From positions 132,439,129 through 132,503,128 of the forward strand of contig CP136064.1 in the NCBI GenBank assembly GCA_032622095.1: 64,000 nt of DNA, read 5' to 3'. The position numbers and the translations under genes were made by a program. Positions 13,319-62,066 of this stretch are shown piece by piece; the first letter of the stretch is position 1; each line of letters opens with the position of its first letter. The notes beneath the pieces were generated by a model. The model was not told the DNA's origin and made no database searches. It saw nothing but the letters and a program-made list of their open reading frames with translations. The stretch comes from Siphonodentalium dalli (taxonomy: Eukaryota; Mollusca; Scaphopoda; Gadilida; Siphonodentaliidae).

Positions 13319-13322
<4 letters not shown>

Positions 13323-14619: not shown

Positions 14620-15252
14620 TCTATTATATATTTTGGAAGATCTGTCTGTGTGTGTGTGTGTCTGTGTGTGTCTGTCTGTTTCCAATGGACTCGAAAACGG
14701 CCGAGCCGATTTCGATGAAACTTGGTACGTGGGGGTATTTTTCTGCCGGGGAGGGACATAGGCCTATTAATTTGCCCGTGCGACGTGACCTTGACCTTGA
14801 AATCGGGTCATTTCAAGGTCAAATGCCCGAATATCACGGGATTTTGATGAAACTTGGTATGTGGTGGTACTTTCGTATGGGGAGTCTCATAAGCATATTC
14901 ATTTGCCCGTGTGACCTTGTCCTTGAAATCGGGTCAATTCAAGGTCAAATCGCGAATTTTGATGGGATTTCCACGAAAGTTGATACATAGGGTTACTTTT
15001 GTCCACTGAGTGTTTTGGAACCCGACCTGACCTCGACCTTCAAAATGATCAATTGAAGGTCAAATCGGGTAAAACCGGATGTATTTCGACGGGCACGTTT
15101 GTCTGGTACTTTTGTCCGGGCAGTGTTTTGGACTGGTCATATCGTGACCCAACTTGACCTTGACCTTCAAAATGGACAATTCAAGGTCAAATCGCGCAAT
15201 TCGACGAAACGCAGAGGGGAAACAGCCCGGACGATGTCGGGTCCACCTGCTA
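14620..15252 (+). mobile_element. Helitron C, joined head-to-tail to B, last base(s) lost
   Basis: It starts TCTATTATATATTTTGGAAG right after the CTAG of B. Its 3' hairpin is intact (CCCGGACGATGTCGGG) and the end reads ACCTGCTA, where the G of CTAG should follow. Instead the sequence switches to an inverted copy of the interior of the same family. This is the turning point of the inverted cluster. Confidence 0.85.
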
Positions 15253-15770
15253 CAAAAGTACCCGACAAAAGTACCCGTCGAAATCCATCAGGTTTTACCC
15301 GATTTGACCTTGAATTGACCATTTTGAAGGTCAAGGTCAGGTCGGGGTCACGATTTGACCCGTCCAAAACACTCAGTGGACAAAAGTAACCCTACGTATA
15401 ACATTTTGTCGAAATCCCATCAAAATTCGCGATTCGACCTTGAATTGACCCGATTTCAAGGTCAATGTCACGTCGCTCGGGCAAACGAATAGGCTTACGA
15501 CACTCCCCATACGAAAGTATCCCTAGACACTAATTTTCATCGAAATCCCGTGATACTCGGGCGTTTGACCTTGAAATGACCCGATTTCAAGGTCAAGGTC
15601 ACGTCGCACGGGCAATTTAACAGGCCCATGCCACTTCCCGGCCGAAAGTACCCCCACATACCAAGTTTCGTCGAAATCGGCTCTGCCGTTTTCGAGTCCA
15701 TCGCGAACACACACACACACACACACCCTCCCTCAGACACACACACATATTTCCCAAAATATATAATAGA
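15253..15770 (-). mobile_element. Helitron D, inverted and lacking its 3' end
   Basis: On the minus strand it starts TCTATTATATATTTTGGGAA (ending at 15770) and carries the same TTGACCTTGA-rich interior as B, C and 5041. Its 3' part, including hairpin and CTAG, is absent: it is cut at the junction with C, inside the GGGTACTTTTGTCGGG region. Confidence 0.85.
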
Positions 15771-16201
15771 CTAGCTGATGTGCCCGACATTGTCCGGGCT
15801 ATTAAAAATATATATAAGAACAATTTGTACCCGGTAGCTCCACCCGTTTCAATAAGAACAATTTGTACCCGGTAGCTCCACCCATTTCCGAGATCTCGTC
15901 TGCGCATGCGCGAAGCTGGCGTCGCACGGGCTCGGCGACCCGATAAAATTTGTACCCGGCGCAAGATACATTCACATAGCAAATTTCAAGTCGATAGCTC
16001 CACCCGTTTCCGAGATCTCGTCTGCGCATGCGCTGCACGGGCGTCGCACGGGCTCGCCAATACGACAACGACCACCGCCTGGTCAAACTACACACACGTA
16101 CCAAGTTTCGTCCCGATCGGTCGAGAATTGTAGATTTGTATTAAGGACAGACATACAGACAGACAGACATACAGACAGATTGTATCAAAATATATAGTAG
16201 A
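15771..16201 (-). mobile_element. Helitron E (431 bp), CTAG abutting the TC end of D
   Basis: The 3' tip reads CTAGCTGATGTGCCCGACATTG then TCCGGGC on the plus strand (loop variant AAT). The 5' end is TCTACTATATATTTTGATAC on the minus strand. It belongs to the GCGCATGCGC family of A and F but has a partly duplicated ACCCGGTAGCTCCACCC segment. Confidence 0.85.
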
Positions 16202-16711
16202 CTAGCCGATGAGCCCGACGTTGTCCGGGCTATTCAAAAACCAAATTTCAAGTCGATAGCTCTACCCGTTTCCGAGATCTGGTCTGCGCATGCGCGAAGC
16301 TGGCGTCGCATGGGCTCGGCGACCCGATAAAATTCGTATCCGGGGCAAGATACATTCACATACCAAATTTCAAGTCGATAGCTCCACCCGTTTCCGAGAT
16401 CTCGTCTGCGCATGCGCTAAGCTGGCGTCGCACGGGCTCGGCGACCCGATAAAATTCGTATCCGGGGCAAGATACATTCACATAGCAAATTTCAAGTCGA
16501 TAGCTCCACCCGTTTCCGAGATCTCGTCTGCGCATGCGCGAAGCGGGCGCCACGCGGGCTCGCCAATACGACAACGACGACCGCCTGGTCAAACTACACA
16601 CACGTACCAAGTTTCGTCCCGATCGGTCGAGAATCGTAGATTTGTATCAATGACAGACAAACATACAGACAGACAGACAGACAAACAGAGGTCTTCAAAA
16701 TATATATGAGA
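16202..16711 (-). mobile_element. Helitron F (510 bp), outermost inverted unit
   Basis: The 3' tip CTAGCCGATGAGCCCGAC directly follows unit E. The 5' end is TCTCATATATATTTTGAAGA on the minus strand, ending at 16711 and followed by T, so the outer side keeps the A|T rule. It has three GCGCATGCGC units (16286, 16408, 16530) and is close to A in inverted orientation. Confidence 0.88.
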
Positions 16712-33768: not shown

Positions 33769-33948
33769 TAGTCCAAGTCTTCTCGTACTAAAGCCGGCTA
33801 AGATATTGGGATGGAGGTGCCGGTCTTTAGTCCGAGATCGCGCGCATAGCCTTCTTATGACACGAGTTACGCCCAGGATCTGTGGCGGGAATCTGTGGTG
33901 TATTTTACTCGATTTACCTAACAAAGCAATACATGATGCTATATACGT

Positions 33949-34839
33949 CGGAAAGAGTGACATCTTGTGGTCAGAATGGTGTATAATAATCTAACTTTAA
34001 TGTTAAATTACACATAGAATATTCCGGTTGATTGCCACAAACATCGTTGTTTTTTCTGTTTGTTTACTTAACTGAAAGCCGAACTCAGGTTCCGAAGAAC
34101 TTCGGCATTGTCCGGTGTTTGTTCTGAGTATTCTAGTTTCCGTTTCTATATATAGCGCGGGGTTTTCCGAACAAAATGGTGAAAACCGATCGCCGCAAAG
34201 TCCAGTTTCCAATGTGCTTTGAGAACAATTCCCGCACTAAAAACTTAATGACATAATGGAGGATCAGAAAGGTAGTTTTGTTGACAATTTTCGCAAGCAA
34301 CTTGTCAAAATTGGAGCAAATTAGAACTCTTGTGTCTGACATGCCATGCGTGTGATTTTCATCCATGTGCATTTTGACTTTTGTGTTGATAAAATAATCG
34401 GAGAACCGAATCACACAGTTTCGAAATATAGTTCTTCCGTTTTAGTGGGACTTTTCAAACTTAAGGTTAAAAATTTATACAAATTTTGTTTGATTTTTTG
34501 TGTGCTTAACAAGAGCAGTATATTGCTCTGTTCGCTTAGTATATATCTTAATTTCGCTGAAGTCCACCAAATGTGGGAAATGTAGCACCATATAATTTAT
34601 TCTAATGCTCGTTGTGTTTACACTGTTTTAAACTTTGAGAGGGTTGTAATTCCCCGTAATTTATTTAATGTATTACATTTATATCTTCAATGTTTAATTA
34701 ATCTATTTATTTTTTATTTATTGACACACATAATTACGATTACAATGGAGAATTCATCGTAATTTGCGTTGTCAGTCGAAAATCTACGGAATATTTTCAA
34801 CGGAAAATGCCGAACACAGTTCGTGAGGTCAACTGAGTT
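33949..34839 (+). repeat. 891-bp tandem duplication, copy 1
   Basis: Begins CGGAAAGAGTGACATCTTG and ends …GGTCAACTGAGTT. Translations of three different frames are identical between the two copies, so the block is essentially unchanged. The copies join at a TCG shared by the left edge, the junction and the right edge (microhomology). Confidence 0.95.
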
Positions 34840-35730
34840 CGGAAAGAGTGACATCTTGTGGTCAGAATGGTGTATAATAATCTAACTTTAATGTTAAATT
34901 ACACATAGAATATTCCGGTTGATTGCCACAAACATCGTTGTTTTTTCTGTTTGTTTACTTAACTGAAAGCCGAACTCAGGTTCCGAAGAACTTCGGCATT
35001 GTCCGGTGTTTGTTCTGAGTATTCTAGTTTCCGTTTCTATATATAGCGCGGGGTTTTCCGAACAAAATGGTGAAAACCGATCGCCGCAAAGTCCAGTTTC
35101 CAATGTGCTTTGAGAACAATTCCCGCACTAAAAACTTAATGACATAATGGAGGATCAGAAAGGTAGTTTTGTTGACAATTTTCGCAAGCAACTTGTCAAA
35201 ATTGGAGCAAATTAGAACTCTTGTGTCTGACATGCCATGCGTGTGATTTTCATCCATGTGCATTTTGACTTTTGTGTTGATAAAATAATCGGAGAACCGA
35301 ATCACACAGTTTCGAAATATAGTTCTTCCGTTTTAGTGGGACTTTTCAAACTTAAGGTTAAAAATTTATACAAATTTTGTTTGATTTTTTGTGTGCTTAA
35401 CAAGAGCAGTATATTGCTCTGTTCGCTTAGTATATATCTTAATTTCGCTGAAGTCCACCAAATGTGGGAAATGTAGCACCATATAATTTATTCTAATGCT
35501 CGTTGTGTTTACACTGTTTTAAACTTTGAGAGGGTTGTAATTCCCCGTAATTTATTTAATGTATTACATTTATATCTTCAATGTTTAATTAATCTATTTA
35601 TTTTTTATTTATTGACACACATAATTACGATTACAATGGAGAATTCATCGTAATTTGCGTTGTCAGTCGAAAATCTACGGAATATTTTCAACGGAAAATG
35701 CCGAACACAGTTCGTGAGGTCAACTGAGTT
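34840..35730 (+). repeat. 891-bp tandem duplication, copy 2
   Basis: Same block repeated directly; no difference noticed over the stretches compared. Either very recent or a haplotype/assembly duplication. Confidence 0.95.
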
Positions 35731-44556: not shown

Positions 44557-45430
44557 CTAGCAGGTTAGCCCGCCACTGGCGGCATTCGTCCCATGACTTT
44601 GTTCGAAAAAGCAATTGCAACAGGTTCCGATACACTTGTGCGTCGAAATCAGCAAGTTTTATCCGATTTGACCTTGAATTGACAATTTTGTAGGTCAAGG
44701 TCAGGTCGTGGTCATGATTTGACCCGTCCAAAACACTCCGCGGACAAAAGTACAGAAATCCGCCAGTTTTACCTTGAATTGACCAGTTCCGCCAAACAAA
44801 TTAAAAATCCGCCAGTTTTACCCGAGTTGACCTTGAATTGATCATTTTGAAGGTCAAGGTCAGGTCGGGGTCACAATTTTAACCCGCCCATGACACTTCC
44901 CGTAGGTAGCAAGTTTGAGCTCAATCGGTTCGAGTCTATAAAGGACACACACATATATATATATATATCATGTGGGGGTACCCGTTTCAAGGTGAATATC
45001 ACCTAGGACGGAAAAACTGACCCGATCCCAGTTCATAGGAAGCCCTAAGTACGTAATAATCACACAACACGCTCATGTCTGGATACCATAAGTACGTAAG
45101 AATCACACAACACGCTCACCGACGCTGACGCAAGTGTACAGACGTAAGAATCACATTACGCACATACGCTCTTTATCAACAACACTGCGGATAGGAACGC
45201 TCTTTAACTATCAACGCGATTAACACACGCAGTGCCGTTTGCGGTGATTTTGATGATTGGGAGTGGAAAATGAGTGCTCAGAGCTTGTCCAAAACGCGAC
45301 GACGGCCATTCCCGTCGTTTTCTACCTTTAGATAGGAAGTTTGAGCTCGATCTGACCAGCCGTTTTTGATTCTATAAAGTACACACACACATATATTTAT
45401 ATACGGAAGTCTCAAAATATATACTAAAGA
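44557..45430 (-). mobile_element. Array unit 1 (GCC-hairpin tip)
   Basis: Intact CCGCCACTGGCGG tip, preceded by A. Contains three short blocks of AAGGTCAAGGTCAGGTCG text and the GAGCTCAATCGGTTCGAGTC module. The 5' terminus is slightly altered (…ATATACTAAAGA). Confidence 0.82.
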
Positions 45431-46510
45431 CTAGCAGGTTAGCCCGCCACTGGCGTGCTTGGTCAGAAACATGACAATGTTTTATGTTGTTAGCAGGTTA
45501 GTCCGCCACTGGCGGCATTGGTCCCATGGCTTTGGTCGATCCATTAATTGTACAGGACCGGGCTACTCAAAAACCAAATTTCGATAGCTCCACCCGTTTC
45601 CGAGATCTGGTCTGCGCATGCGCGAAGCTGGCATCGCACGGGCTCGGCGACCCGATAAAATTCGTATCCGGGGCAAGATACATTCACATACCAAATTTCA
45701 AGTCGATAGCTCCACCCGTTTCCGATATCTCGTCTGCGCATGCGCTGCACGGGCGTTGCACGGGCGCGCCAATACTACAGCGACGACCACCTGGTCAAAC
45801 TACACTCACGTACCAAGTTTCGTCCCGATCGGTCGAGGTGTTGGTATCTGATGCAAAAGACGAAATTGTGAGTGTTGGTCAATAGTCCCCGTCGTGAACC
45901 CCATCCTCGCAAAGAGCGGACAGTCAATTAATCCGTCGTGAACCTCCATCACCAACGCGACGTAAACATGTGTTGCGTTTTAAAAATAGGAAAGCACTTT
46001 CTCTCTGCATAATACATTTCGAGCGATAACGTTTGCGTAAATACGAAATTGTGAGTGTTGGTTTGTAACCGGGATTTCTGAGAAGCATTATGCCTATAAC
46101 TACCCTCCCACATAAGCCCCGACCTAAGTGTCATACATACTATAACAATGATGTTGTAAGAGTACTATGGCATCCAATAAATCTCCCCGCATAGGAAAGC
46201 ACGCAATGTTCCCGTATAACTCTGCAGATGCTAATAACGTTGAATGGAAACAGACGCTCTTTATAGCGATGCGTCAAAAACAAACGCTCATTAAATAATC
46301 ACTTGATTAACCCACGCCGTGCCTTTGCGGTGATTTGGGAGTGGATAAAGGGTGCTCAGAGCTTCTCCAAAACGCGACAACTACGGTGTTCGTGGATTTT
46401 TACACTTATATACGAAAAATGAGCTCGGTGGGTGCAGTCGTTTTCGATTCTATAAAGTACACACACACATATATATATATATACGGAAGTCTCAAAATAT
46501 ATAGTATAGA
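45431..46510 (-). mobile_element. Array unit 2, with a second tip nested at 45490
   Basis: The tip at 45431 is variant (CGCCACTGGCGTGC) and only about 59 bp long before another tip, TAGCAGGTTAGTCCGCC, begins at about 45490, so one unit was truncated by the next. The body includes the GCGCATGCGC module at 45613 and 45738 and the TCTGCAGATGCTAATAACGT module at 46221. Confidence 0.78.
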
Positions 46511-47190
46511 CTAGCAGGTTAGCCCGCCAATGGCAGCGTTCGTCAGAAACATGACAATTTATAATTTTTTGAATGAATTTTTGAATTTAATTTTTTGAAT
46601 TTAATTTTTGGTTTTTCAATATTTTACCGGATTTGACCTTGAAATGATCATTTTCAAGGTCAAGGTCAGGTCGGGGTCACAATTTAACCGGTCCACGACA
46701 CTTCCCATAGGTAGCAAGTTTGAGCTCAATCAGTTCGAGTCTATAAATGACACACACATATATATCATTTATGGGTACCCGTTTCAAGGTGAAGATCACC
46801 TAGGGCGGAAAATCTGACCCGATCCGCGTTCCTAGGAAGCCCTAAGTACGTAAGAATCACACAACACGCTCATGTCTGTATACTAACGCACACGCCCAGA
46901 CCCAGACGTAAGAATCACATTACGCACATACGCTCTTTATCAACTACACTGCGGATAGGAACGCTCTTTAACTATCAACGCAATTAACACCCGCAGTGCC
47001 GTTTGCGGTGATTTTGATGATTGTGAGTGGAGAATGAGTGCCCAGAGCTTGTCCAAAACGCGACGACGGCAATTCCCGTGGGTTTTTACCCTTAGATAGG
47101 AAGTTTGAGCTCGATCTGACCAGCCGTTTTCGATTCTATAAAGTACACACACATATATTTGTATACGGAAGTCTCAAAATATATAGTAGA
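46511..47190 (-). mobile_element. Array unit 3, degenerate hairpin
   Basis: The tip reads CGCCAATGGCAGC, which breaks part of the stem. Carries TTTCAAGGTCAAGGTCAGGT and ends with the standard GGAAGTCTCAAAATATATAG TAGA terminus. Confidence 0.8.
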
Positions 47191-48397
47191 CTAGCATGTT
47201 AGCCCGCCACTGGCGGCATTCGTCCCATGGCTTTGGTCGATCCATTAATTTTAGTTTTTCAATGTAACCCCGTACAGGATCGGGCTACTCAAAAACCAAA
47301 TTTCAAGTCGATAGCTCCACCCGTTTCCGAGATCTGGTCTGCGCATGCGCGAATCTGGCGTCGCACAGGCTCGGCGACCCGATAAAATTCGTATCCGGGG
47401 CAAGATACATTCACATACCAAATTTCAAGTCGATAGCTCCACCCGTTTCCGATATCTCGTCTGCGCATGCGCTGCACGGGCGTCACACGGGCTCGCCAAT
47501 ACGACAGCGACGACCACCTGGTCAAACTACACTCACGTACCAAGTTTCGTCCCGATCGGTCGAGGTGTTGGTATCTGATGCAAAAGACGAAATTGTGAGT
47601 GTTGGTCAATAGTCCCCGCCGTGAACCTCATCGTCGCAAAGAGCGGACAGTCAATTAACCCCGTTGTGAACCTCAATCACCAACGCGACGTAAACATGTG
47701 TTGCGTTCTAAAAATAGGAAAGCACTTTCTCTCTGCATAATTCTGCAGATGCTAATAACGTTGCTCCCCGTAGGTAGCAATATCGTTGTTGTTGATATTT
47801 ACGGCTTGGGGGCTATTTTCTTATTTAGCAAGTTTGAGCTCAATCGGTTAGAGTCTATAAAGGACACACTCATATATATGACACTTCCCGTAGGTAGCAA
47901 GTTTGAGCTCAATCGGCATTCCCTGGAATTTCCCGTAGATTGGCAGATTCCAGTAGCTTTATAACGGTATATCTGGGGAGAAATCTGATGCTATATTCGT
48001 GATTATCTGGGATGATTTCGGTATATACCAATGGTATATACTGTAAAAACAGAGCGCGCCATCCGTGCTCGCAGGGAATAAATTTCGAGCGATAAAGTTT
48101 GCGTTCCCGTATAACTCTGCAGATGCGAATAACGTTGAATGGGAAACAGACGCTCTTTATAGAGATGCGTCAAAAACAAACGCTCATTAAATAATCACTT
48201 GATTAACCCCCGCCGTGCCTTTGCGGTGATTTGAGATTGGAGAACGGGTGCTCTGAGCTTCTCTAAACCGCGACCACGGTCGTGTCGGTGGGATTTGACA
48301 CTTACATAGGAAGTTTGAGCTCAATCTTTACACGCGTTTTGGATTCTATGAAGTACATATATACACACATATATACGAAGTCTCAAAATATATAGTA
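47191..48397 (-). mobile_element. Array unit 4 (1207 bp)
   Basis: Tip CTAGCATGTTAGCCCGCC, then a GATCTGGTCTGCGCATGCGC module (about 47340 and 47463). Includes at 47938-48076 a copy of the 4165 dispersed repeat. The join to the next unit lacks the expected TC (ATATAGTA|CTAG). Confidence 0.78.
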
Positions 48398-49293
48398 CTA
48401 GAAGGTGACCCGACTTCGTCCGGGCTATTCAAAAACCAAATTTCAAGTCGATTGCTCCACCCGTTTCCTAGATCTGGTCTGCGCATGCGCGAAGCTGGTG
48501 TCGCACGTGCTCGGCGACCCGATAAAATTCGTATCCGGGGCAAGATACATTCACATACCAAATTTCAAGTCGACAGCTACACCCGTTTCCGAGATATATA
48601 GCCCAATGTCATTTGCGGATACCTCGGCCGGTGATGAGTTAACGCGACACAGTCAAATGCATCGGCAGGGTAAAATTCGTATCCGGGGCAAGATACATTC
48701 ACATACCAAATTTCAAGTCGATAGCTACAACCGTTTCCGAGATATATAGCCCAATGTCATTTGCGGATACCTCGGCCGGTGATGAGTTAACGCGACACAG
48801 TCAAATGCATCGGCAGGGTGAGAGTTAACGTAATCTAACTTTATGACCTCTGACGACGTCATAGAAGTTACGCATTGATTTTATCCTGATAAAAGATCGT
48901 ACCACTTGTACCTAATAATTGAGGCAGATAACTAAAACGGATACATACATATTATATATCGTTGGAAAGATGAAGCCACACAGATTCCAACCGTGTAAAT
49001 TATATGACTGGCAATTTATTATTCGCGCTATATCGAATCGATTTGTGAGCACCGAACTGAAATATATTAGCGCAAAACGGCGTAAAAATAGATTTGACCT
49101 CCGCACGTGAAAAGTTGACCTCGCACGGACAAATAAATATGCCTATGTTCGTCTCCGGCCGAAAATACCCTAAAATACCAAATTTCATCGAAATTGGCTT
49201 AGTCGTTTTCGAGTCCATCGATTTCAAACACACACACACACAAACAAACACACACACAGATCTTTCAAAATATATAATAGATAGATAGATAGA
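48398..49293 (-). mobile_element. Array unit 5 (GACTTCGTC tip)
   Basis: Tip CTAGAAGGTGACCCGACTTC. Contains two copies of the TATAGCCCAATGTCATTTGC / GCATCGGCAGGG block and the ACGTGAAAAGTTGACCTCGC module. The 5' end is TCTTTCAAAATATATAATAG extended by (ATAG)n. Near-relatives are the units at 56488 and 57203. Confidence 0.82.
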
Positions 49294-51405
49294 CTAGCAG
49301 GTTAGCCCGCCACTGGCGGCATTCGTCCCATGGCTTTGTTCGAAAAAGCAATTGCAACAGGTTCCGAGACACTTGTGCTGCATTTGCAGCAAATTTCGGC
49401 AATAGTCAGAAACATGACAATTTTAATTGAATTTTTTGTTTTTCAATGAGTTAATTATTTTGTTTTTCAATGAGTTAATTGTGCTTTTTTAATTTTTTAA
49501 TTGAATTTTTTGTTTTTAAATTTTACCCGATTTTTTTTGGTTTTTCAAGGAGTTAATTGTGCCTTTTTAATTTTGTTTTTCAATTTGACCCGATTTTTTT
49601 TTGTTTTTCAATGAACCCGTCCATGACACTTCCCGTATTTAGCAAGTTTGAGCTCAATCGGTTCGAGTCTATAAAGGACACACACATATATATGACACTT
49701 CCCGTAGGTAGCAAGTTTGAGCTCAATCGGCATTGCCTGGAATTTCCCAGTCAATATTTAGCAAGTTTGAGCTCAATCGGTTCGAGTCTATAAAGGACAC
49801 ACTCATATATATTTGCCGACATTGCCGTGGGGATGCCCGTTCCTACACGCGTTTTCGATTCTATGAAGTACCCACATATATACACACATATTAATAGTAG
49901 ATTGGCAGATTCCAGTAGCTTTATAATGGTATATCTGGGGAGAAATCTGATGCTATATTCGTGATTATCTGGGATGATTTCGGTATATACTGTAAAAACA
50001 GAGCGCGCCATCCGTGCTCGCAGGGAATAAATTTCGAGCGATAACGTTTGCGTTCCCGTATAACTCTGCAGATGCGAATAACGTTGAATGGGAAACAGAC
50101 GCTCTTTATAGAGACTGGCGGCATTCGTCCCATGGCTTTGTTTCAGAAACATGACATTTTTGTAATTATTTATTTTTTATTTATTTTTGTTTTTTATTTT
50201 TGAATATGAATTTAATGTTTTTTAAATTTAATATATTTTGTTTCTGAATTGTTAATTTTTTTTTATTTTAAATTGTTTTAATTAAATTGTAAATTGTTTG
50301 AATTAATTTTTTTGTTTCTGGCGGAAAAATTTACCCGTAGAAATCCCCCCCTTCCTAGGAACGACAGACAACGCATTCTTTGTTTCGTGATCGAAGAAGT
50401 GTCAAACTTGACAGTAGTTAGGTACGCTATTCAGGTGCGCAAAGAGATACCACAAGCTATCTTATTGGATCAGAGCTCTCGCTAGCAACCAATGAAAACA
50501 CGCGATACAACCGGTAACCGGATGTAAACTAATACACGTGAATCGGTCCAATTTGGAAAAGGTCGTTTGTATTTTGGTAAGATTAAATATTTTAAGATTA
50601 AAGAATCATAAAAGTACCCAATATAATTTTTTTCTGAATTTTTTCCGAAACATAACAGAAACATGACATTTGTTTTATTTTTATTTATATATTTTTTTAA
50701 TTTTAACATGACATTTTAATATTATTTTAATGTTTTTTAAATGTAATATATTTTTTCTTCTTATTTTTTTCCGAAACATAACAGAAACATGACATTTTTT
50801 TAATTATTTTGTTTTTATTTATATATTTTTTAAATTTTAATATTAATTTAATGTTTTTAAAATTTAATTTATGTATTTTTTCAATTTTTTAATATTTAAT
50901 TCTTTTTTATAATTTTAATTTTTTTTTTATTGTTAATTTTTTTTTTTTTCTGGAGGAAAAAACCGATGAATCCCCCTTCCTAGGAACGACTTTCAGTGAG
51001 TTAATTCATGGTACCCGTCCTAAACATTTCGAGCGATAACGTTTTGTTGAACCCCGTAACGTTTTGTTGATGTGTAAACATGCCCCCCCCCCGTTCATAG
51101 GAACGACAGGCAATCTCTCTGCATAATATTTCGAGCTATTTCGAGCGATAACGTTTTGTTGGATAACGTTTTGTTGAATTGTAAACATGTCCCCCGTTCT
51201 CAGACTCCCGTCATACAGATAAGTAGAGTTATGCCTCTTGGATCTGCATAGATAGCGAAAAGACGCTCTTTATATAAACACTGCGGGAAACGAACGCTCT
51301 TTATATATCAACGCTATTAACCCCGAAGTGCCGATTACACTTAAATACGAAGTTTGAGCTCAATCTGAACACGCGTTTTGGATTCCATGAAGTACACATA
51401 CACAA

Positions 51406-51448
<43 letters not shown>

Positions 51449-51473
51449 CGAAAGTCTCAAAATATATAGTAGA
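49294..51473 (-). mobile_element. Array unit 6, longest (2180 bp), AT-rich and probably composite
   Basis: The first 440 bp match the unit at 55248 almost exactly (GCAATTGCAACAGGTTCCGA onward). It then contains, at 49900-50025, the ATTCCAGTAGCTTTATAA segment and long T-rich low-complexity DNA (50150-50990). It ends with the standard CAAAATATATAGTAGA terminus. Likely two or more units whose internal boundaries decayed. Confidence 0.7.
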
Positions 51474-52348
51474 CTAGCAGGTTAGCCCGCCACTGGCGTG
51501 GTTGGTCAGAAACATGACATTTTTTTAAATTATTTTGTTTTTATTTATTTATTTTTTTTAATTTGTTTTAATATTAATATTTTTTCTGAATTTTTTAATA
51601 TTTATTTAATTTGTTCTTTTTTTTATTTTAAATTGTTTTAATTAAATTTTGTGTTTCTGGCGGAACAATTTACCCGATGAAATCCCCCCCCCCCCCTTCC
51701 TATGAACGACAGACAACGCATTCTTTGTTTTGTTTTTTTTTAACCTGCCCGTACCCGTCCTAATGTCGTGAAATCTCTCTGCATAATATTTCGAGCGATA
51801 ACATTGCATTGAATTGAAAACAAACACTTCCCGTCGTGAAATCTCTCTACGATAACATTGCATTGAATTGAAAACAAACGCTTCCCGTCGGGAAATCTCT
51901 CTGCATAATATTTCGAGTCTGCCGTACCCGTCCTAATGTCGTGAAATCTCTCTGCATAATATTTCGAGCGATAACATTGCATTGAATTGAAAACAAACGA
52001 TTCCCGTTGTGAAATCTCTCTGCATAATATTTCGAGCGACAGACTACAATCAGACTTCCCCATACAGATAAGTAGATAGCGAAAACGACGCTCTTTATAT
52101 AGACACTGCGGAAAACGAACGCTCTTTATATATCAACGCTATTAACCCCGAAGTGCCGATTGCGGTGATTTTGATTATTGGGAAGGGAGAAACGGTGCTC
52201 TGAGCTTCTCCAAAACGCGACCACGGCGGTGTCCGTGGGATTTTACACTTATATACGAAATTTGAGCTCCATCAGTCAACGTGTTTTCGATTCTATGAAG
52301 TACACACACACACACACATATATATACGGAAGTCTAAAAATATATAGT
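51474..52348 (-). mobile_element. Array unit 7
   Basis: Tip CGCCACTGGCGTGG (variant). Contains four or five near-tandem copies of TCTCTCTGCATAATATTTCG with GATAACATTGCATTGAATTG between 51770 and 52040. The join to the next unit is TATAG instead of CTAG. Confidence 0.75.
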
Positions 52349-52845
52349 ATAGCCGATGAGCCCGACGTTGTCCGGGCTATTCAAAAACCAAATTTCGATA
52401 GCTCCACCCGTTTCCGAGATCTGGTCTGCGCATGCGCGAAGCTGGCGTCGCATGGGCTCGGCGACCCGATAAAATTCGTCTCCGGGGCAAGATACATTCA
52501 CATAGCAAATTTCAAGTCGATAGCTCAACCCGTTTCCGAGATCTCGTCTGCGCATGTGCGAAGCTGGCGTAGCACGGGCTCGGCGACCCGATAAAATTCG
52601 TATCCGGGTCAAGGTACATTCACATAGCAAATTTCAAGTCGATAGCTCCACCCGTTTCCGAGATCTCGTCTGCGCATGCGCAAAGCTGGCGCCACACGGG
52701 CTCGCCAATACGACAACGTCGACTGCCTGGTCAAACTACAGACACGTACCATGTTTCGTCCCGATCGGTCGAGAATCGTAGATTTGTATAAATGACAGAC
52801 AGACAAACAAACAGACAGACAGAGGTCTTCAAAATATATATGAGA
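52349..52845 (-). mobile_element. Array unit 8 (GACGTTGTC tip, GCGCATGCGC family)
   Basis: Same family as cluster units A, E and F: tip AGCCGATGAGCCCGACGTTG, three 122-bp modules (52430, 52551 variant CATGTGCG, 52672), and 5' end TCTCATATATATTTTGAAGA on the minus strand. Confidence 0.86.
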
Positions 52846-53641
52846 CTAGAAGGTGACCCGACTTCGTCCGGACTTTGACGGTTTGACCTTGAATTGACCA
52901 TTTTGAAGGTCAAGGTCAGGTGGGGTCAAACACCAACACCCCAAAAATGGTGGAAATCGGCCCAGCGGATACCGGGAAATCGGCCCAGCGGATACCGAGA
53001 TACCCTAAAAATCCGTAAAAATCCGCTAGTTTAACCCGATTTGATTTCCACTCAAGTATATAAACGCGCCTCATATACACACGCTCATTAATTATCAAGT
53101 TTCAACTTAAAGATAAATTACCATCGGTGCCCGAGATATCGCCAAGACGTCTGAAACAGTCAAATGCATCGGCCGGTTAAGCGTTAACGTGATCTAACGT
53201 TATGACCTCTAACGACGTCATAGAAGTTACGCATTGTTTTTATCCTGATGGAAGATAGTACCACTTCTTCTTGATAATTGAGGCAGATAACTAAAACGGA
53301 TACATACGCATTATATATCGTTGGAAAGAGGAAACACGAAATATTCTCACAGTGTTTATATTATGACTGGCATTTTATTATTCGCGCTGTTTCGAATCGA
53401 TTTGTAAGCACCGAACTCAAATGAAAGTCCCGTAACACAGCGTAAAAACAGATTTGACCTCGGCACGTGAAAAGTTGACCTCGGATCTGAAAATTAATAT
53501 GCCTATGCCACTTCCCGACCGATAGTAGCCTCACATTCGAAGTTTCATCGAAATCGGGTCGGCCGTTTTCGAGTTCATCGCGAACACACAGACAGACACA
53601 CCACACACGCACAGATCTTCCTAAAATATATAATAGATAGA
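52846..53641 (-). mobile_element. Array unit 9 (GACTTCGTC tip)
   Basis: Tip CTAGAAGGTGACCCGACTTC followed by TTTGACCTTGAATTGACC. A tandem doublet AATCGGCCCAGCGGATACCG lies at 52950-53000. The 5' half resembles unit 5 (ACGTGAAAAGTTGACCTCGG). Ends ATATATAATAGATAGA. Confidence 0.82.
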
Positions 53642-54095
53642 CTAGCAGGTTAGCCCGCCACTGGCGGCGTTGGTCAGAAACATGACCTTTTTTTGGCTTT
53701 TCAACGAGTTAATTGTGCCTTAATTGTGCCTTAATTGTGTCGATAGCTCCACCCGTTTCCGAGATCTCGTCTGCGCATGCGCTGCACGGGCGTCGCACGG
53801 GCTCGCCAATACGACAACGACGACCACCTGGTCAAACTACACTCACGTACCAAGTTTCGTCCCGATCGATCGAGGTGTTGGTATCTGATGCAAAAGACGA
53901 AATTGTGAGTGTTGGTTTGTAACCGGGATTTCTGAGAAGCATTATGCTTATATCCACACTAACTACCCCCCTAAGCCATGGCCTAGGTGTCATACATACT
54001 ATAACAATGATGTTGTAAGAGTACTATGGCATCCAATAAATCTCCCCGCATAGGAAACCACTCAAAAGTATTGTTCCCGTATATCTCTCTGCAGA

Positions 54096-54960
54096 CAGGG
54101 GGGCAGGGCCGGAAAAAATAACTGCAGACACAGGGTGGAAAAAACTGTTTTCTTCGGTTTGGGTACCCCCCCCCCCCAAACTGCAAAAACTGCAGTTTGT
54201 TTTCACTGACCATTTGCCCCCCCCCCCCCCAGAAAAAAAAAATCTACCCCAGCCGGACAACAACTCGGTTTGACCGGAAACCGAAAAAAACACCAGAGCA
54301 TACAATTCACGAGAAGGTGCTTGGTAACTTAGTTTAGATTATTATGAATAAAATGGTCATTGTCTACCAGTAGAACGCAGATTTGTACCTCGTGATGTCA
54401 TGACATGTACAAACATGTATATTGGTGATCGCAACGCTTTGTATGCACTTAAAAAAATGACAACTAGTCATTACCTCGACTTTGAAAAAGATGCAAATGA
54501 GATGAGTGAGATACCAGCATATAACTGTTTTCTGATACCATTGGAGGAGAAATTGTTTAATACATGGGATAGTTCTGCAGTAAAAATTTGCCAGATAAGC
54601 GATCGCAGGGTAGAATTCTGCATTCGACTGGTAGACACTGACATAGTCGGCATTATTAAGAGGGTTAATGGGGTCAATATCACATGTAAACCAAGACAGT
54701 GGTTATCCAAAATTGTTTTAGGTGGATTGTACTACTCATGTATGACCATGTATATATGATTTGGATATTAAGGTTAATCCATATTCTATAAAATGAGAGA
54801 AAATTGAATTTGTGAGTCTGAAAATACATATTTGGAAAAAAATTACATGCAAATTTTTTCTGACAACCCCCCCTAAATGAATAAGGAAAAAATTTACGCC
54901 TATGTACCCCCCACCCCCGGTACGTTGTGTCCCGCAGTTTTTTTCCGCCCCCCCCCCCTG
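54096..54960. mobile_element. CAGGGGG-type DNA transposon (865 bp) with perfect 7-bp target duplication
   Basis: The ends are CAGGGGGGCAGGGCCGGAAA and …TTTTTTTCCGCCCCCCCCCC-CTG. CTGCAGA at 54089-54095 and 54961-54967 is an exact target duplication, and a Helitron paralogue (46221) gives the empty site. Internal C and A runs repeat the terminal motif around 54160-54240 and 54860-54920. It carries the 119-codon ORF at 54400. Confidence 0.88.
54400..54759 (+). CDS. Hypothetical 119-codon ORF inside a transposon
   Basis: The frame starts MTCTNMYIGDRNALYALKKM and includes EKLFNTWDSSAVKICQISDR and ending SCMTMYI. Unlike the surrounding low-complexity DNA, its composition looks like ordinary soluble protein with mixed charged and hydrophobic residues. 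I do not recognise a domain, and no transposase signature is visible. It could be a leftover exon of the parent transposon's protein, or host coding sequence carried as cargo. There is no splice evidence. Confidence that it is a translated gene is low. Confidence 0.3.
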   Translation: MTCTNMYIGDRNALYALKKMTTSHYLDFEKDANEMSEIPAYNCFLIPLEEKLFNTWDSSAVKICQISDRRVEFCIRLVDTDIVGIIKRVNGVNITCKPRQWLSKIVLGGLYYSCMTMYI

Positions 54961-55247
54961 CTGCAGATGCTAATAACGTTGAATGGTAAACACACGCTCT
55001 TTATAGCGATGCGTCAAAAACAAACGCTCATTAAATTATCACTTGATTAACCACCGCAGTGCCGTTTTTGTGACTGAGATTGGAGAACGGGTGCTCTGCG
55101 CTTCTCCAAAATGCGACGCCGACGGTGTCCGTGGATTTTTACACTTATATACGAAATTTGAGCTCAATCTGTCCACGCGTTTTCGATTCTATGAAGTACA
55201 CATATACACACATATATATATATTCATAGTTCTCAAAATATATAGTA

Positions 55248-55898
55248 CTAGCAGGTTAGCCCGCCACTGGCGGCATTCGTCCCATGGCTTTGTTCGAAAA
55301 AGCAATTGCAACAGGTTCCGAGACACTTGTGCTGCATTTGCAGCAAATTTCGGCAATAGTCAGAAACATGACAATTTTAATTGAATTTTTTGTTTTTCAA
55401 TGAGTTAATTATTTTGTTTTTCAATGAGTTAATTGTGCTTTTTTAATTTTTTAATTGAATTTTTTGTTTTTAAATTTTACCCGATTTGTTTTTGTTTTTC
55501 AAGGAGTTAATTGTGCCTTTTTAATTTTGTTTTTCAATTTTACCCGATTTGTTTTTGTTTTTCAATGAACCCGTCCATGACACTTCCCGTATTTAGCAAG
55601 TTTGAGCTCAATCGGTTCGAGTCTATAAAGGACACACACATATATATGACACTTCCCGTAGGTAGCAAGTTTGAGCTCAATCGGCATTCCCTGGAATTTC
55701 CCAGTCACCAACGCGGCGTAATTTTGGTACATATATAGAGACCAATTGTCCATCGGCTGTCATGTGTAGTAAAGATGTCTTATAAGCCGACATTGCCGTG
55801 GGGATGCCCGTTCATACACGCGTTTTCGATACTATGAAGTACCCACATATATACACACATACATATATATATACGGAAGTCTCAAATTATATAGTAGA
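55248..55898 (-). mobile_element. Array unit 11, near-duplicate of the start of unit 6
   Basis: Follows unit 6 text through GAGACACTTGTGCTGCATTT, the T-rich stretch and the two TTTGAGCTCAATCGG modules, then ends with a standard terminus (CTCAAATTATATAGTAGA). Confidence 0.82.
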
Positions 55899-56487
55899 CT
55901 AGCAGGTTAGCCCGCCACCGGCGGCTTGTCCGAAACATGACATTTTTTTATATTTTTTTTTAATTTTTAGCTCCACGCGTTTCAATAAGAAAAATTTGTA
56001 CCCGGTAGCTCCACCCGTTTCCGAGATCTGGTCTGCGCATGTGCGAAGCTGGCGTCGCACGGGCTCGGCGACCCGATAAAATTTGTACCCGGCGCAAGAT
56101 ACATTCACATAGCAAATTTCAAGTCGATAGCTCCACCGTTTCCGAGATCTCGTCTGCGCATGCGCTGCACGGGCGTCGCACGGGCTCGCCAATACGACAA
56201 CGACCACCGCCTGGTCAAACTACACACACGTACCAAGTTTCGTCCCGATCGGTCCAGAATCGTAGATTTGTATGAAGTACCCACACACACACACAAACAT
56301 AAATATATAAGAGAGATATGTAAATTAGATAGATTGTAACACAATATATAGGGAGAGATATGTAAATGATCTACACACCATTACTGGTGTTTGTGGGGTA
56401 TATCAATACTCATTCACGATCATATCATTGAGGTCCGGAGGGTGTGGGCTATCTCTCGAATACACAGAGTTCTCAAAATATATAGTA
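55899..56487 (-). mobile_element. Array unit 12
   Basis: Tip CGCCACCGGCGGC (loop variant ACC). The body combines ACCCGGTAGCTCCACCCG and GCGCATGCGC modules like cluster unit E, then a (CA)n run and TTCTCAAAATATATAGTA. Confidence 0.8.
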
Positions 56488-57202
56488 CTAGAAGGTGACC
56501 CGACTTCGTCCGGGCTATTAAAAAACCAAATTTCAAGTCGATTGCTCCACCCGTTTCCTTGATCTGGTCTGCGCATGCGCGAAGCTGGTGTCGCACGTGC
56601 TCGGCGACCCGATAAAATTCGTATCCGGGGCAAGATACATCCACACACCAAATTTCAAGTCGATAGCTACACCCGTTTCCGAGATATATAGCCCAATGTC
56701 ATTTGCGGATACCTCGGCCGGTGATGAGTTAACGCGACACAGTCAAATGCATCGGCAGGTGAGAGTTAACGTAATCTAACTTTATGACCTCTGACGACGT
56801 CATGGAATTTACGCATTGATTTTATCCTGATAAAAGATCGCACCACTTGTACCTAATAATTGAGGCAGATAACTAAAACGGATACATACATATTATATAT
56901 CGTTGGAAAGATGAAGCCACACAGATTCTAACCGTGCAAATTATATGACTGGCAATTTATTATTCGCGCTATATCGTATCGATTTGTGAGCACCGAACTG
57001 AAATATATTAGCGCAAAACGGCGTAAAAACAGATTTGACCTCCGCACGTGAAAAGTTGACCTCGCACGGACAAATAAATATGCCTATGTTCGTCTCCGGC
57101 CGAAAATACCCTAAAATACAAAATTTCATCGAAATTGGCTTAGTCGTTTTCGAGTCCATCGATTTCAAACACACACACAGATCTTTCAAAATATATAATA
57201 GA
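56488..57202 (-). mobile_element. Array unit 13 (GACTTCGTC tip)
   Basis: Close copy of unit 5 with one instead of two TATAGCCCAATGTCATTTGC blocks. Ends TCTTTCAAAATATATAATAGA. Confidence 0.84.
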
Positions 57203-58041
57203 CTAGAAGGTGACCCGACTTCGTCCGGGCTATTAAAAAACCAAATTTCAAGTCGATTGCTCCACCCGTTTCCTAGATCTGGTCTGCGCATGCGCGAAGC
57301 TGGTGTCGCACGTGCTCGGCGACCCGAGAAAATTCGTATCCGGGGCAAGATACATTCACATACCAAATTTAAAGTCAATATCTCAACCCGTTTCCGAGAT
57401 CTCGTCTGCGCATGCGCGAAGCTGGCGTCGCACGTGCTCGGCGACCCGATAAAATTCGTATCCGGGGCAAGATACATTCACATACCAAATTTCAAGTCGA
57501 TAGCTACACCCGTTTCCGAGATATATAGCCCAATGTCATTTGCGGATACCTCGGCCGGTGATGAGTTAACGCGACACAGTCAAATGCATCGGCAGGGCGA
57601 GAGTTAACGTAATCTAACTTTATGACCTCTGACGACGTCATAGAAATTACGCATTGATTTTATCCTGATAAAAGCATCGTACCACTTGTACCTAATAATT
57701 GAGGCAGATAACTAAAACGGATACATACATATTATATATCGTTGGAAAGATGAAGCCACACAGATTCGCGCTATATCGAATCGATTTGTGAGCACCGAAC
57801 TGAAATATATTAGCGCAAAAACGGCGTAAAAATAGATTTGACCTCCGCACGTGAAAAGTTGACCTCGCACGGACAAATAAATATGCCTATGTTCGTCTCC
57901 GGCCGAAAACACATCCAAATACCAAATTTCATCGGAATTGGCTTAGTCGTTTTGGAGTCCATCGATTTCAAACACACAAACAAACACACAAACTTATAAA
58001 CTTACACACACACAGATCTTTCAAAATATATAATAGATAGA
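57203..58041 (-). mobile_element. Array unit 14 (GACTTCGTC tip)
   Basis: Second close copy of unit 5, with an extra GCGCATGCGC module at 57410 and a small deletion near 57767. Its 5' end (ATAATAGATAGA) abuts a copy of the TTGGCAGATTCCAGTAGC segment rather than a tip. Confidence 0.84.
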
Positions 58042-59061
58042 TTGGCAGATTCCAGTAGCTTTATAACGGTATATCTGGGGAGAAATCTGATGCTATATTC
58101 GTGATTATCTGGGATGATTTCGGTATATACCAAAGGTATATACTGTAAAAACATGGCGCGCCATCCGTGCTCGCAGGGTTGGTCAGAAACAAATGTTTTT
58201 TTTTATTTAATTTATGATTTTTATTCTAATTGACACGGGCTCGCTATAACTCCGGTATCACTAACGTACGCGGCATTGGAAGGGTCATGTTAACTTCCGC
58301 CTGGACCCACGTGGCGTGACGTAATTCACAACCACGTGTATTTACCTCGCGACCGCGACACACACAATGGCCCGATAATGGGCACACGTTCCCTGGCATT
58401 TCCCAGAAGATATTCATGGGGAGGTCAAGTGACCAATTTTGAAATTTGCTGGTCGCATTCGTCTGTATGTCTGAGGAATTCTCGGCTAGATATTGTTACC
58501 AACATGACATATTTAAATTAATCCCGCCGTGTACCCCAACACCAACGGCAACGCGACATGTGCTGCGTTCTAAAAATAGGTCGATTGCAGTGGATTCGTA
58601 CAGATGACGAAATATGAGTGCGATAGATAATATTGTTGATCGAAAGCATTTGAATTAATACGTCGCAAAACTCGCCTTGATGTTGGCTAATAGATATTTG
58701 TCCATGCTAGGTGTTGGGAATGTCGTCACACAACACGCTCATGTCTGCATACAGTCTTACACGCACACGCCGAGACCCAGACGTAAGAATGACATTAGGC
58801 ATATACGCTCTTTATCAACTACAATGCGATAGGAACGCTCTTTAACTATCAACGCGATTATCCCCCGCCGTGCCTTTGCTGTGATTTGGGAGTGGATAAA
58901 GGGTGCTCAGAGCTTCTCCAAAACACGACTACGGCGGTGTCGGTGGGATTTTACACTTACATACGAAAATTGAGCTCAATCTGTACACGCGTTTTGGATT
59001 CCATGAAGTACACACACACACATATATATACGGAGTTGTCAAAATATATAGTATAGATAGA
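58042..59061 (-). mobile_element. Array unit 15, tip missing
   Basis: Starts with the dispersed segment known from 4165, 47938 and 49900. Then comes unique text (58200-58520) and then standard 5'-half modules (ACGCTCTTTAACTATCAACG, ATTTTACACTTACATACG) and a CAAAATATATAGTATAGA terminus. The hairpin end is not recognisable. Confidence 0.65.
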
Positions 59062-60117
59062 CTAACAGGTTAGCCCGCCACTGGCGGCGTTGGTCCGAAA
59101 CATGACATTTTTTTGGCGTTTCAATGAGTTAATTGTGCCTTTTTAATCAAGAGAAATTATGGTACCCGTCCCTAAAAGATTTAAGGTACATCGGGCGGAA
59201 AGAACTGACCCGATGAAAAATTGTTTAATCAAGAGGAATTATGATACCCGTCCCTAAAAGAGGTATGCCAACGATGTCGTTGTTGTTGGCATTCACGGCT
59301 TGGGGCCACCCGAAAATTCTCACATTGCCGTAAAGAGAAAATAGCATTGTGTGTTTTCTCGCCAACAAAGTCGTTGTTGTTGGCATTCACGGCTTGGCGA
59401 GTCCAACAATGTCGTTGTTGTTGGCATTCACGGCTTGAGGCAGTGGAAGTCCCGTCAGATTATGGGACGTATCACAGTGCCTCGTATTTACTAAATTTTA
59501 GCAGCCATATAAGCTGCGTTCTCACCAACGTCGTTGTTGTTGGCATTCACGGCTTGGCGAGTCCAACAATGTCGTTGTTGTTGATATTCACGACTTGAGG
59601 CAGTGGAAGTCCCGTCAGATTCTGGGACGTTTCACAGTGCCTCGTATTTACTAAATTTTAGCAGCCATATAAGGTGCGTGAGTTAGCACGAATTGAGGGG
59701 TGTAAGTTTAGAGCTTGTTTATATGAATGTATCGAAAATAGACTAAGATTTTCAGCCGTAACAAGAAATGTATATATCAGAAAATGTAAATTCTATATTT
59801 TGGAAGGTATTATTAGCAAGTTTTGGCTCAACGGGTTTAGCAGTTTGAAGTGAATATGGATATAAAAATATACATATACAGATATAAAAAATGTAGAGTT
59901 ACGCCTCTTGGATCGCGAGTGAATCGATAGCGACAAACATCGTATCGAAACGAAATGTCGCACTTTATGGGTCAAGGAGTGCTCGTGTGTTTTTACACTT
60001 ATATACGAAATTTGAGCTCGATCCCACCAGCCGTTTTCGATTCTATGAAGTACCCACATACACACATATATATACACATATATACATATATACGGAAGTC
60101 TCAAAATATATAGTAGA
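59062..60117 (-). mobile_element. Array unit 16, GTTGTTGTTGGC family, CTAG mutated to CTAA
   Basis: The tip reads CTAACAGGTTAGCCCGCC. Carries five GTCGTTGTTGTTG copies in GGCATTCACGGCTTGG context, two with an almost identical 110-bp surround (59400 and 59560). Same family as 12289-13318. Confidence 0.84.
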
Positions 60118-60821
60118 CTAGCAGGTTAGCCCGCCACTGGCGGCATTCGTCCCATGGCTTTGTTCGAAAAAGCTTTATTTTTCAATTCGTCGAAATCCGC
60201 CAGTTTTACCCGATTTGACCTTGAATTGATCATTTTGAATGTCAAGGTCAGGTCGGGGTCACAATTTAACCCGCCCATGACACTTCCCGTAGGTAGCAAG
60301 TTTGAGCTCAATCGGTTCGAGTCTATAAAGGACACACACATATATATATCATTTGTGGGTACCCGTTTCAAGGTGAAGATCACCTAGGACGGAAAAACTG
60401 ACCCGATCCCAGTTCCTAGGAAGCCCTAAGTATGTAAGAATCACACAACACGCTCATGTCTGGATACCAAGTACGTACGAATCACACAACATGCTCACCG
60501 ACGCTGACGCCCATGTACAGACGTAAGAATCACATTACGCATATACGCTCTTTATCGACTACACTGCGGATAGGAACGCTCTTTAACTATCAACGCGATT
60601 AACCACCGCCGTGCCGTTTGCGGTGATATTGATGATTGGGAGTGGAGAATGAGTGTTCAGAGCTTGTCCAAAATGCGACTTGGAAGATCCCCGTGGGTTT
60701 TTACCCTTATATACGAAATTTGACCTCGATCCGCGCAGCCGTTTTAGATTCTATGAAGTACCCACATACACACATATATATATATACACACATATACGGA
60801 AGTCTCAAAATATATAGGAGA
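60118..60821 (-). mobile_element. Array unit 17
   Basis: Resembles unit 1: tip, CCGATTTGACCTTGAATTGA, GAGCTCAATCGGTTCGAGTC and AATCACACAACAYGCTCA doublet. Ends CAAAATATATAGGAGA. Confidence 0.84.
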
Positions 60822-61885
60822 CTAGCAGGTTAGCCCGCCACTGGCGGCGTTGGTCCGAAACATGACATTTTTTTGGCTTTTCAATGAGTTAATTGTGCCT
60901 TTTTAATCAAGAGAAATTATGGTACCCGTCCCTAAAAGAGGTATGATTTAAGGTACAAACTGACCCGATGAAAAATTCCCCCATTCCTAGGAACGACAGA
61001 CATAAGAATCACACAACACGCATTTTTTAATGAGTTAATTCTGTCTTTTTAATCAAGCGGAATTATGATACCTGTCCCTAAAAGAGGTACGCCAACGATG
61101 TCGTTGTTGTTGGCATTCACGACTTGGGGCAACACGCATTTTTTAATGAGTTAATTCTGTCTTTTTAATCAAGAGGAATTACGATACCTGTCCCTAAAAG
61201 AGGTATGCCAACGATGTCGTTGTTGGCATTCACGGCTTGGTGGCCACCCGAAAATTCTCGCCCGAAGATTCTCACATTGCCGTAAAGAGAAAATTAGCAT
61301 TGTGTGGATTTAGTAATTTGAACTAATTATTTTCTCGCCAACAATGTCGTTGTTGTTGGCATTCACGGCTTGGGAGTGACCCCCACCTTTACGAGATGGT
61401 CAAAGGAGAAGGCAGTGGAAGTCCCGTCATATTCTGGGACGTATCGCACTGCCTGGCATTTACCGAATTTCAGCAGCCATATAAGCTGCGTGAGTTAGCA
61501 CGATTTGAGGGGTGTATGTTTATAGTTTGTTTATATGAATGTATCGAAAATAGACTAAGATTTTCAGCCGTAACAAGAAATGTATATATCAGAAAATGTA
61601 ACTTCTATATTTTGGAAGGTATTAGCAAGTTTTGGCTCAACGGGTTTACCAGTTTGAAGTGAATATGGACATAAAAATATACATATACAGATATAACAAA
61701 TGTAGAGTTACGCCTCTTGGATCGCGAGCGAATAGATAGCGAAACCCATCGTATCGAAACGAAGGTCGCACTTTAAGGGTCAAGGAGTGCTCAGAGCTCG
61801 TCCAAAATGTTTTTACACTTATATACGAAATTTGAGCTCGATCCGCGCAGCTGTTTTCGATTCTATGAAGTACCCACATACACAC

Positions 61886-61916
<31 letters not shown>

Positions 61917-61981
61917 TATATATATATATATATATACGTAGTTCTAAAATATATATACGTAGTTCTCAAATATATAGGAAA
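60822..61981 (-). mobile_element. Array unit 18, GTTGTTGTTGGC family
   Basis: Very similar to 12289-13318, with an internal duplication of the TTTTTAATGAGTTAATTCTG / GAGGTAYGCCAACGATGTCG block (about 61020-61220) and a doubled 5' terminus (TACGTAGTTCTAAAATATAT, then again). Confidence 0.86.
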
Positions 61982-62066
61982 CTAGCTAGTGGGCCCGACT
62001 TCGTCCGGGCTGTTTCCCCTCTGCTATCATCGAAAGGCGCGATTTGACCTTGAATTGACAATTATG
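61982..62066 (-). mobile_element. Array unit 19, only the 3' tip remains
   Basis: CTAGCTAGTGGGCCCGACTT with TCCGGGC hairpin and CAGAGGGGAAACAGCC-type text on the minus strand, as in cluster units B/C and the element at 5041. The remainder is lost at the array's right edge. Confidence 0.8.

Follow-up and report, generated by a model that had tools for sequence, protein, structure and literature searches.

We analyzed a 64,000-nucleotide stretch of the genome of the scaphopod mollusc Siphonodentalium dalli (C4:132439129-132503128; hereafter the window) and found that positions 44557-62066 (17.5 kb) hold a minus-strand stack of Helitrons arranged head to tail, every unit in the same orientation. 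The existence of this array as a one-way multi-family stack was confirmed, with the coordinates and the single orientation that an original prediction, made from the letters of the window, had given. The array probably arose in the main by serial, independent and oriented insertion of several non-autonomous Helitron families at the 5' ends of resident copies. The wider proposition, that the resident Helitron 5' terminus is a main, oriented and self-renewing integration site for its relatives and that one-way mixed-family stacks record the order of transposition waves, stands at about even chances. The principle is already known from single cases; as far as the open literature shows, the scale, the family mixing and the strict orientation are new.

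The array consists of 21 segments, 19 of which have a 5' tip of their own; the other two are a 59-bp 3' stub (45431-45489) and a 5'-truncated unit of 85 bp (61982-62066), and the earlier estimate of about 18 units is adjusted to this count. Exact CTAG|TC, in which the 3' end of one unit is joined directly to the 5' end of the next, was observed at 11 of the 20 boundaries (45430/31, 46510/11, 47190/91, 49293/94, 51473/74, 52845/46, 53641/42, 55898/99, 57202/03, 60117/18, and 60821/22) and at 13 when one base change is tolerated, which bears out the earlier statement that most boundaries are exact joins. The variants are TTAG|TC (59061/62), CTAG|TT (61981/82), CTAG|TACT, which lacks TC (48397/98, 55247/48, and 56487/88), CTA|TACT (52349/50), CCAA|TC (49901/02 and 58041/42), and CTAA|CAAC at the stub (45489/90). 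Overall, TC is present at 14 of the 19 5' tips and CTAG at 16 of the 21 3' ends. Joins of the form CTAG..TATATATTTT occur 12 times on the minus strand of the array and never on the plus strand, and 300 dinucleotide shuffles gave a mean of 0.003 and a maximum of 1. The shorter CTAGTC occurs 11 times on the minus strand and once on the plus strand (shuffled one-strand mean of 1.76, maximum of 8). Over 20 nt, the resident tips in the array are 70-90% A+T and the preceding unit ends 35-55%.

Three end classes with matched 5' and 3' tips are present in the array, in agreement with the at least three tip families named earlier. We use our own labels for them, alpha, beta, and gamma for the 5' end and 3A, 3B, and 3C for the 3' end. 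The alpha class has 5' ends such as TCTACTATATATTTTGAGA and the 3' end GCCAGTGGCGGGCTAACCTGCTAG (3A), the beta class has 5' ends such as TCTATTATATATTTTGAAAG and 3' ends such as GCCCGGACGAAGTCGGGTCACCTTCTAG (3B), and the gamma class has TCTCATATATATTTTGAAG and GCCCGGACAACGTCGGGCTCATCGGCTAG (3C). All units are on the minus strand. U1 (44557-45430; alpha, 3A tip) is the 3'-most unit, and the host T follows its CTAG. Next to it are the stub U2a (45431-45489; 3A tip) and U2b (45490-46510; alpha), which has the 5' end TCTATACTATATA and CTAA at its 3' end. U3 (46511-47190) and U4 (47191-48397) are alpha units with 3A tips; the 5' tip of U4 lacks TC and begins TACTATATA, and a segment called D lies unbroken inside it. 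U5 (48398-49293; beta, 3B tip) has three additional TCTA in its 5' tip. U6a (49294-49901; alpha-like, 3A tip) has CCAA before its 5' TCTACTATTAATATG, and U6b (49902-51473) combines an alpha 5' end with the 3' end CTGCCAA, the D end, instead of CTAG. They are followed by U7 (51474-52349; alpha, 3A tip, 5' tip without TC), U8 (52350-52845; gamma, 5' TCTCATATATATTTTG, 3C tip with the final letters CTA), and U9 (52846-53641; beta, 3B tip). U10 (53642-55247; alpha, 3A tip, 5' tip without TC) contains a foreign insert at about 54095-54960, which by eye has CAGGGG...CCCCTG ends with CTGCAGA on either side, like a cut-and-paste transposon. The remaining units are U11 (55248-55898; alpha-like, 3A tip), U12 (55899-56487; 3A tip, gamma-like body, 5' tip without TC), U13 (56488-57202; beta, 3B tip), U14 (57203-58041; beta, 3B tip, CCAA before the 5' tip), U15 (58042-59061; alpha 5' end, D end at 3'), U16 (59062-60117; alpha, 3A tip reading TTAG), U17 (60118-60821; alpha, 3A tip, 5' TCTCCTATATA), U18 (60822-61981; alpha, 3A tip, 5' TTTCCTATATA), and U19 (61982-62066), a 3B-like 3' fragment of which the 5' end was not found. 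The U15/U16 border was shifted by one base from the computed table so that U15 begins with TC.

On the basis of their termini and flanks, the units were filed as putative non-autonomous canonical Helitrons. They have 5' TC and 3' CTRR termini and, as judged from the flanks of filled sites, lie between A and T without target duplication. We delimited 70 units in 26 loci and four pieces of the window, of which 22 were gamma-3C, 31 beta-3B, and 14 alpha-3A; two were mixed or misfiled and one was spurious. Both ends belonged to one class in 67 of the 70 units, although the delimitation itself required both tips and beta was the default 5' class. The join loci, 30 in number, come first by position on C1; because each was picked for containing a join, the proportion joined among them is not a rate. 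L027, L028, L032, and L052, which are overlaps or duplicates, were excluded from the unit delimitation and from the branch-length and gamma|beta comparisons. 5' tips were skipped when no TC was present in the 14 bases ahead of the core or when they were near the locus edge, and L045 and U7 were marked as lacking TC. In these loci and window pieces, A precedes 18 of the 23 unjoined 5' tips. Two of the five others are genuine exceptions (L042, and L049 at 1755), one is spurious, and two (L036, and L049 at 1509) follow a CTAG end missed by the script. T follows 18 of the 19 unjoined 3' tips, the exception being U2b. These A and T flanks differ from the T-rich target with T on both sides that characterizes Helentron/HINE elements. 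All four CTAG tips fold into a hairpin 10-13 nt from the end, with energies of -3.3 to -6.4 kcal/mol as DNA, which is not significant against shuffles (z of -0.17 to -1.84); the D end gave -0.2 kcal/mol. A Pfam scan of 10 of the 95 listed open reading frames in the window detected no Helitron domain, and no genome-wide transposase search was made. An identification of the units as retroelement 3' ends, raised by an internal stretch similar to RTE-type tails, was dropped because A|TC...CTAG|T boundaries recur.

The original prediction regarded the absence of A|T target bases at the joins as excluding independent insertion. This does not follow, since a host A and the first T of a resident that begins with TC already constitute a canonical AT target. 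Insertion at that AT would yield A|TC...CTAG|TC... without any remnant, and a test for A|T remnants thus cannot separate the models. Each insertion would re-create A|TC in front of the newcomer, and a stack would be able to grow 5'-ward. Since AT is palindromic, its blind use would give both orientations, and something in the tip should therefore orient the event; the AT-rich common tip TCTAYTATATATTTTG likely does so. Possibly, the transposase makes a nick at the resident's 5' cleavage site, to which the incoming strand is then joined. Repeated insertion exactly at an existing end, which had been listed earlier as one option, is the one favoured by the data.

We searched the genome (2.23 Gb, 9 contigs) for exact TCTAYTATATATTTTG 5' tips, which represent the TCTAY class. 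The search yielded 21,595 tips, of which 10,968 (50.8%) lie directly after CTAG, 9,072 (42.0%) after A, and 1,555 (7.2%) after neither; among the 10,627 without a directly preceding CTAG, 9,072 thus have A before them. The share of about one half in joins suggests a tendency of newcomers to insert at the 5' end of copies already present. The 20-base join pattern, with its 10,968 matches in the source genome, gave one match as a reversed control and one in a prokaryote collection of 257 billion bases (L001), the latter without similarity to the window. Neither the tips nor the join had matches in viral contigs. As had been proposed earlier, the joins were compared with random expectation. AT makes up 10.3% of dinucleotides in 269 kb sampled, and a random insertion would strike such a tip with a probability of about 0.00005 (0.005%). 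The joined tips exceed random AT use roughly ten-thousand-fold if each join is taken as one event, and this is an upper figure because tandem amplification breaks that assumption. An excess of about a hundred-fold is left even if 99 of every 100 joins were copies of others.

The orientation of neighbouring joins was compared among the first 100 listed. It was the same in 39 of 39 pairs within 5 kb, in 42 of 43 within 10 kb, and in 27 of 47 beyond 100 kb, with about 20 of the close pairs belonging to one array. A genome-wide pattern search for exact head-to-head tip pairs, in which both tips had to be perfect and directly adjoining, gave no match. At C1:27898108-27898145, two 5' tips form a near head-to-head pair, separated by a short gap. 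A one-way minus-strand run of at least 21 exact joins extends over 25 kb at C1:13761094-13786346 and is longer than the array in the window. The genome-wide counts also bear on an assembly artefact. Repeats are hard to assemble; however, there are 10,968 exact joins throughout the genome, and the 26 loci show unit ends that match and outer flanks of A and T, which renders this explanation extremely improbable.

Exact joins and a single orientation would follow directly if concatemers had formed by rolling-circle read-through or from multimeric circles, strand transfer from one Helitron to a different one having mixed the templates, and had been integrated whole. Helraiser circles carry the exact CTAG|TC junction (PMC4778049, in the part available), and tandem arrays in plants and bats are interpreted as rolling-circle products in the accessible text of PMC5876387. 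Concatemers should, however, hold like copies. The nearest array relative was adjacent in only 3 of 19 units, which is at chance level (2.0 expected, P 0.34), and the 5' tips vary from unit to unit. Self-alignment and unit comparison revealed no stretch of two or more whole units that recurs in the same order in the array. Since neighbours are not closest kin beyond chance and no multi-unit order is repeated, a single concatemer is unlikely. Some units are closely related at a distance: U6a and U11 share 98.7% identity, and U5, U13, and U14 share 95.4-98.1% with each other. The closest relative of some array units is in a second nest (12289-16711) about 36-40 kb away, as for U8 and N7 (93.3%) and for U12 and N6 (95.7%). 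Kinship was therefore found for the unit orders 6-11 and 5-13-14 noted earlier, but the repeated order itself was not, and the correspondence of our U numbers to the earlier unit numbers is uncertain. Some self-alignments extend about 50 bp over a join (e.g., 44805-45483 with 60193-60874, 89%) because 3A tips are alike. A block duplication of U1-U2 and U3-U4 was considered and rejected: U1 and U3 (91.3-92.0%) are hardly closer than U3 and U17 (91.3-91.4%), and U2b and U4 (89.3-89.5%) are no closer than U4 and U10 (91.5%).

Because the join pattern detects only downstream tips of the TCTAY class, family order was counted separately throughout the genome. Gamma|beta joins, with gamma upstream, numbered 3,038. 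The count of beta|gamma joins was 320 for a single beta tip variant and rose to 485 when two (CACCTT and CACCTG) were covered, the latter being a lower figure since rarer beta 3' variants are missed. Symmetric template mixing in concatemers predicts equal numbers of the two orders, in contrast to the 3,038 and 485 observed. In 12 gamma|beta joins, the median identity was 93.4% among the gammas and 65.2% among the betas, and the gamma value was higher in 64 of 66 pairs. Such discordant partner divergence argues against concatemers as well, and we regard them as an unlikely origin of the array; the earlier suggestion that circles or concatemers are the natural reading of the joins is not sustained. 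With gammas this uniform beside betas this diverse, these gammas met their unlike beta partners independently.

Local tandem amplification was observed as a second process in the genome. A tandem duplication with a 2,405-bp period carries two joins at C1:1626601-1630401 (L025-L028, C1:1625101-1631901). At C1:188850288-188868830, 17 of the 485 beta|gamma joins are spaced at 1.06-1.20 kb, apparently a two-Helitron unit turned satellite, and C2:103.71-103.80 Mb perhaps represents tandem amplification too. Such duplication of a few joins by unequal exchange or replication slippage, or a two-Helitron composite moving as one, might be extended to the array in the window. The L025-L028 duplication, the satellite-like joins (C1:188850288-188868805), and the close relationship within U5/U13/U14 and U6a/U11 are in line with it. 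The absence of any repeated whole-unit order seen in the array is not. If one composite had been copied repeatedly, gamma and beta identities would be similar, but the betas joined to gammas are mostly dissimilar, and those joins are thus not copies of one composite. Local duplication or composite copying is accordingly quite unlikely as the source of the array.

Serial insertion at resident 5' ends is the explanation we prefer, in view of the exact joins, the matched complete units, the single orientation, the genome-wide excess of joins, the A/T outer flanks, and the independent pairing seen in the 12 gamma|beta joins. Gamma, the more uniform family, is upstream, as later arrivals on 5' ends would give. 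The order of arrival, growth on the 5' side, and a role of a transposase nick are inferred. Several observations weigh against it. For the 12 gamma|beta joins, a Mantel test (rho 0.27, P 0.056) is compatible with some shared history. Of the two units at a join, the upstream one has the shorter terminal branch in only 16 of 34 joins overall; this is the case in 6 of the 15 joins within a family and in 8 of the 12 gamma|beta joins (P 0.39). Terminal branch length is not significantly correlated with array position (rho -0.22 and -0.16); in the comparison of unit kinship with array order proposed earlier, neither these values nor the adjacency of kin exposed a trend. A younger age of gamma relative to beta is only suggested, since the beta class is broad and the difference is not a dating. 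In the array itself, U9|U8 has the reverse order, beta upstream of gamma. At four of the 20 boundaries TC is missing on the resident side, two have CCAA instead of CTAG, and one reads CTAA|CAAC; insertion between existing units would moreover require a G|T target. Since branch lengths show no trend, the direction of growth is deduced from the target and the gamma/beta order.

The opposite direction, in which newcomers insert at the G|T junction behind the 3' end of a resident and arrays grow 3'-ward, would produce an identical end structure and is compatible with the branch lengths. Maize lines with just one of the two joined elements fit it as well, barring excision, according to the available part of PMC2267711. 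The upstream position of the more uniform gamma family speaks against it, as do the targets of Helraiser, of which only 46 of 1,751 are non-AT, chiefly TT, AC, and AA (PMC4778049, available part). Growth on the 3' side is thus very improbable.

The 5'-end model has precedents. In maize, two unlike Helitrons joined as CTAG|TC, with a G/T junction, were read as consecutive insertions, and insertion at host A plus resident T was proposed by Du and colleagues, as the accessible text of PMC2267711 describes; an earlier view cited there held that an A should remain between joined Helitrons. The joining of unlike Helitrons is the same as here, but there it concerns one pair and here a stack of about 19 units and 10,968 exact joins. 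Helraiser favours AT in AT-rich DNA, most strongly on the 3' side (PMC4778049, as far as its available part shows). Tandem Helitrons of bats and Helraiser circles have the same exact CTAG|TC junctions, and the available parts of PMC4778049 and PMC5876387 interpret such tandems as rolling-circle products, whereas several families alternate in the present array. Plant centromeric Helitron arrays (Xiong et al. 2016, as summarized in the accessible text of PMC12628747) are likewise head-to-tail, but they consist of truncated units, many of the arrays combining multiple 5' ends with only one 3' end; most units here have two ends, and 16 of the 21 array segments finish in CTAG. In Metarhizium acridum, for three tandem Helitron copies the authors offer repeated 5'-end insertion or rolling-circle replication (PMC5148889, available part); this is one isolated case, from a group whose ends are non-canonical, unlike those of the elements studied here. 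A preference for the vicinity of other copies is likewise known from Helitron clustering in maize (Yang and Bennetzen 2009, cited in PMC12477314), and copy-directed insertion from Drosophila transposable element dimers formed via insertion-site preference (McGurk and Barbash, cited in PMC12628747). Exact, oriented use of a 5' terminus is not described in the available portions of these two citing papers, unlike here. The literature surveyed, mostly open papers in their accessible parts, yielded single pairs or triplets, arrays in plants, and clustering in general, and no comparable genome-wide description.

Exact CTAG|TC joins have been taken to indicate that Helitrons pass through circles or concatemers. 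Since they are common in this genome, also between unlike families, the join alone is no proof of a circle. If 5'-end targeting is true, it amounts to a strong preference of a Helitron to integrate at elements of its own kind. The arrays would then be ordered archives in which position gives relative age, and dispersed Helitrons would have a simple way of becoming tandem repeats and satellites.

Two units of the array deviate at the 3' end. U6b and U15 finish in CTGCCAA, not CTAG, directly ahead of the TC of the next unit, and the rest of these two units was not found next to them. The D-end sequence continues in U4 as CTGCCAATCTACGGG, across an internal A|TCTA(C) that resembles a tip. Since U4 runs through the same sequence, the D-end break lies at or within the internal tip-like A|TCTA, the exact breakpoint being ambiguous because the letters TCTA are common to both sides. 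CTGCCAA is possibly an alternative 3' end or a tip-like internal target. The 5' tips without TC (U4, U7, U10, and U12) have a tip with extra TCTA one or two units 5'-ward, at U5, U9, and U14. This balance of missing TC(TA) and extra TCTA could be a trace of insertion at TCTA|TACT, but it is suggestive only, as it was noticed post hoc and has a hand-estimated chance of about 0.08.

The second nest (12289-16711, mixed strands) contains a minus-strand unit followed by two converging sub-arrays, 13319-15253 on the plus strand and 15254-16711 on the minus strand. It has four exact CTAG|TC joins, and A, in AT-rich DNA, precedes both outer 5' ends. Its first minus-strand unit diverges from the sub-arrays, and the 3'-most unit of the minus-strand sub-array has no recognised 3' end. 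Since this nest holds converging sub-arrays, one-way order is a property of each stack and not of the region. A solo beta unit (5041-5682, plus strand) has the flanks A|TC...CTAG|T, and the 200 kb surrounding the window contain few units. Apart from the Helitrons, an exact 300-bp direct repeat was observed at 33948-34247 and 34839-35138, 891 bp apart, and the adjoining reading frames are duplicated too.

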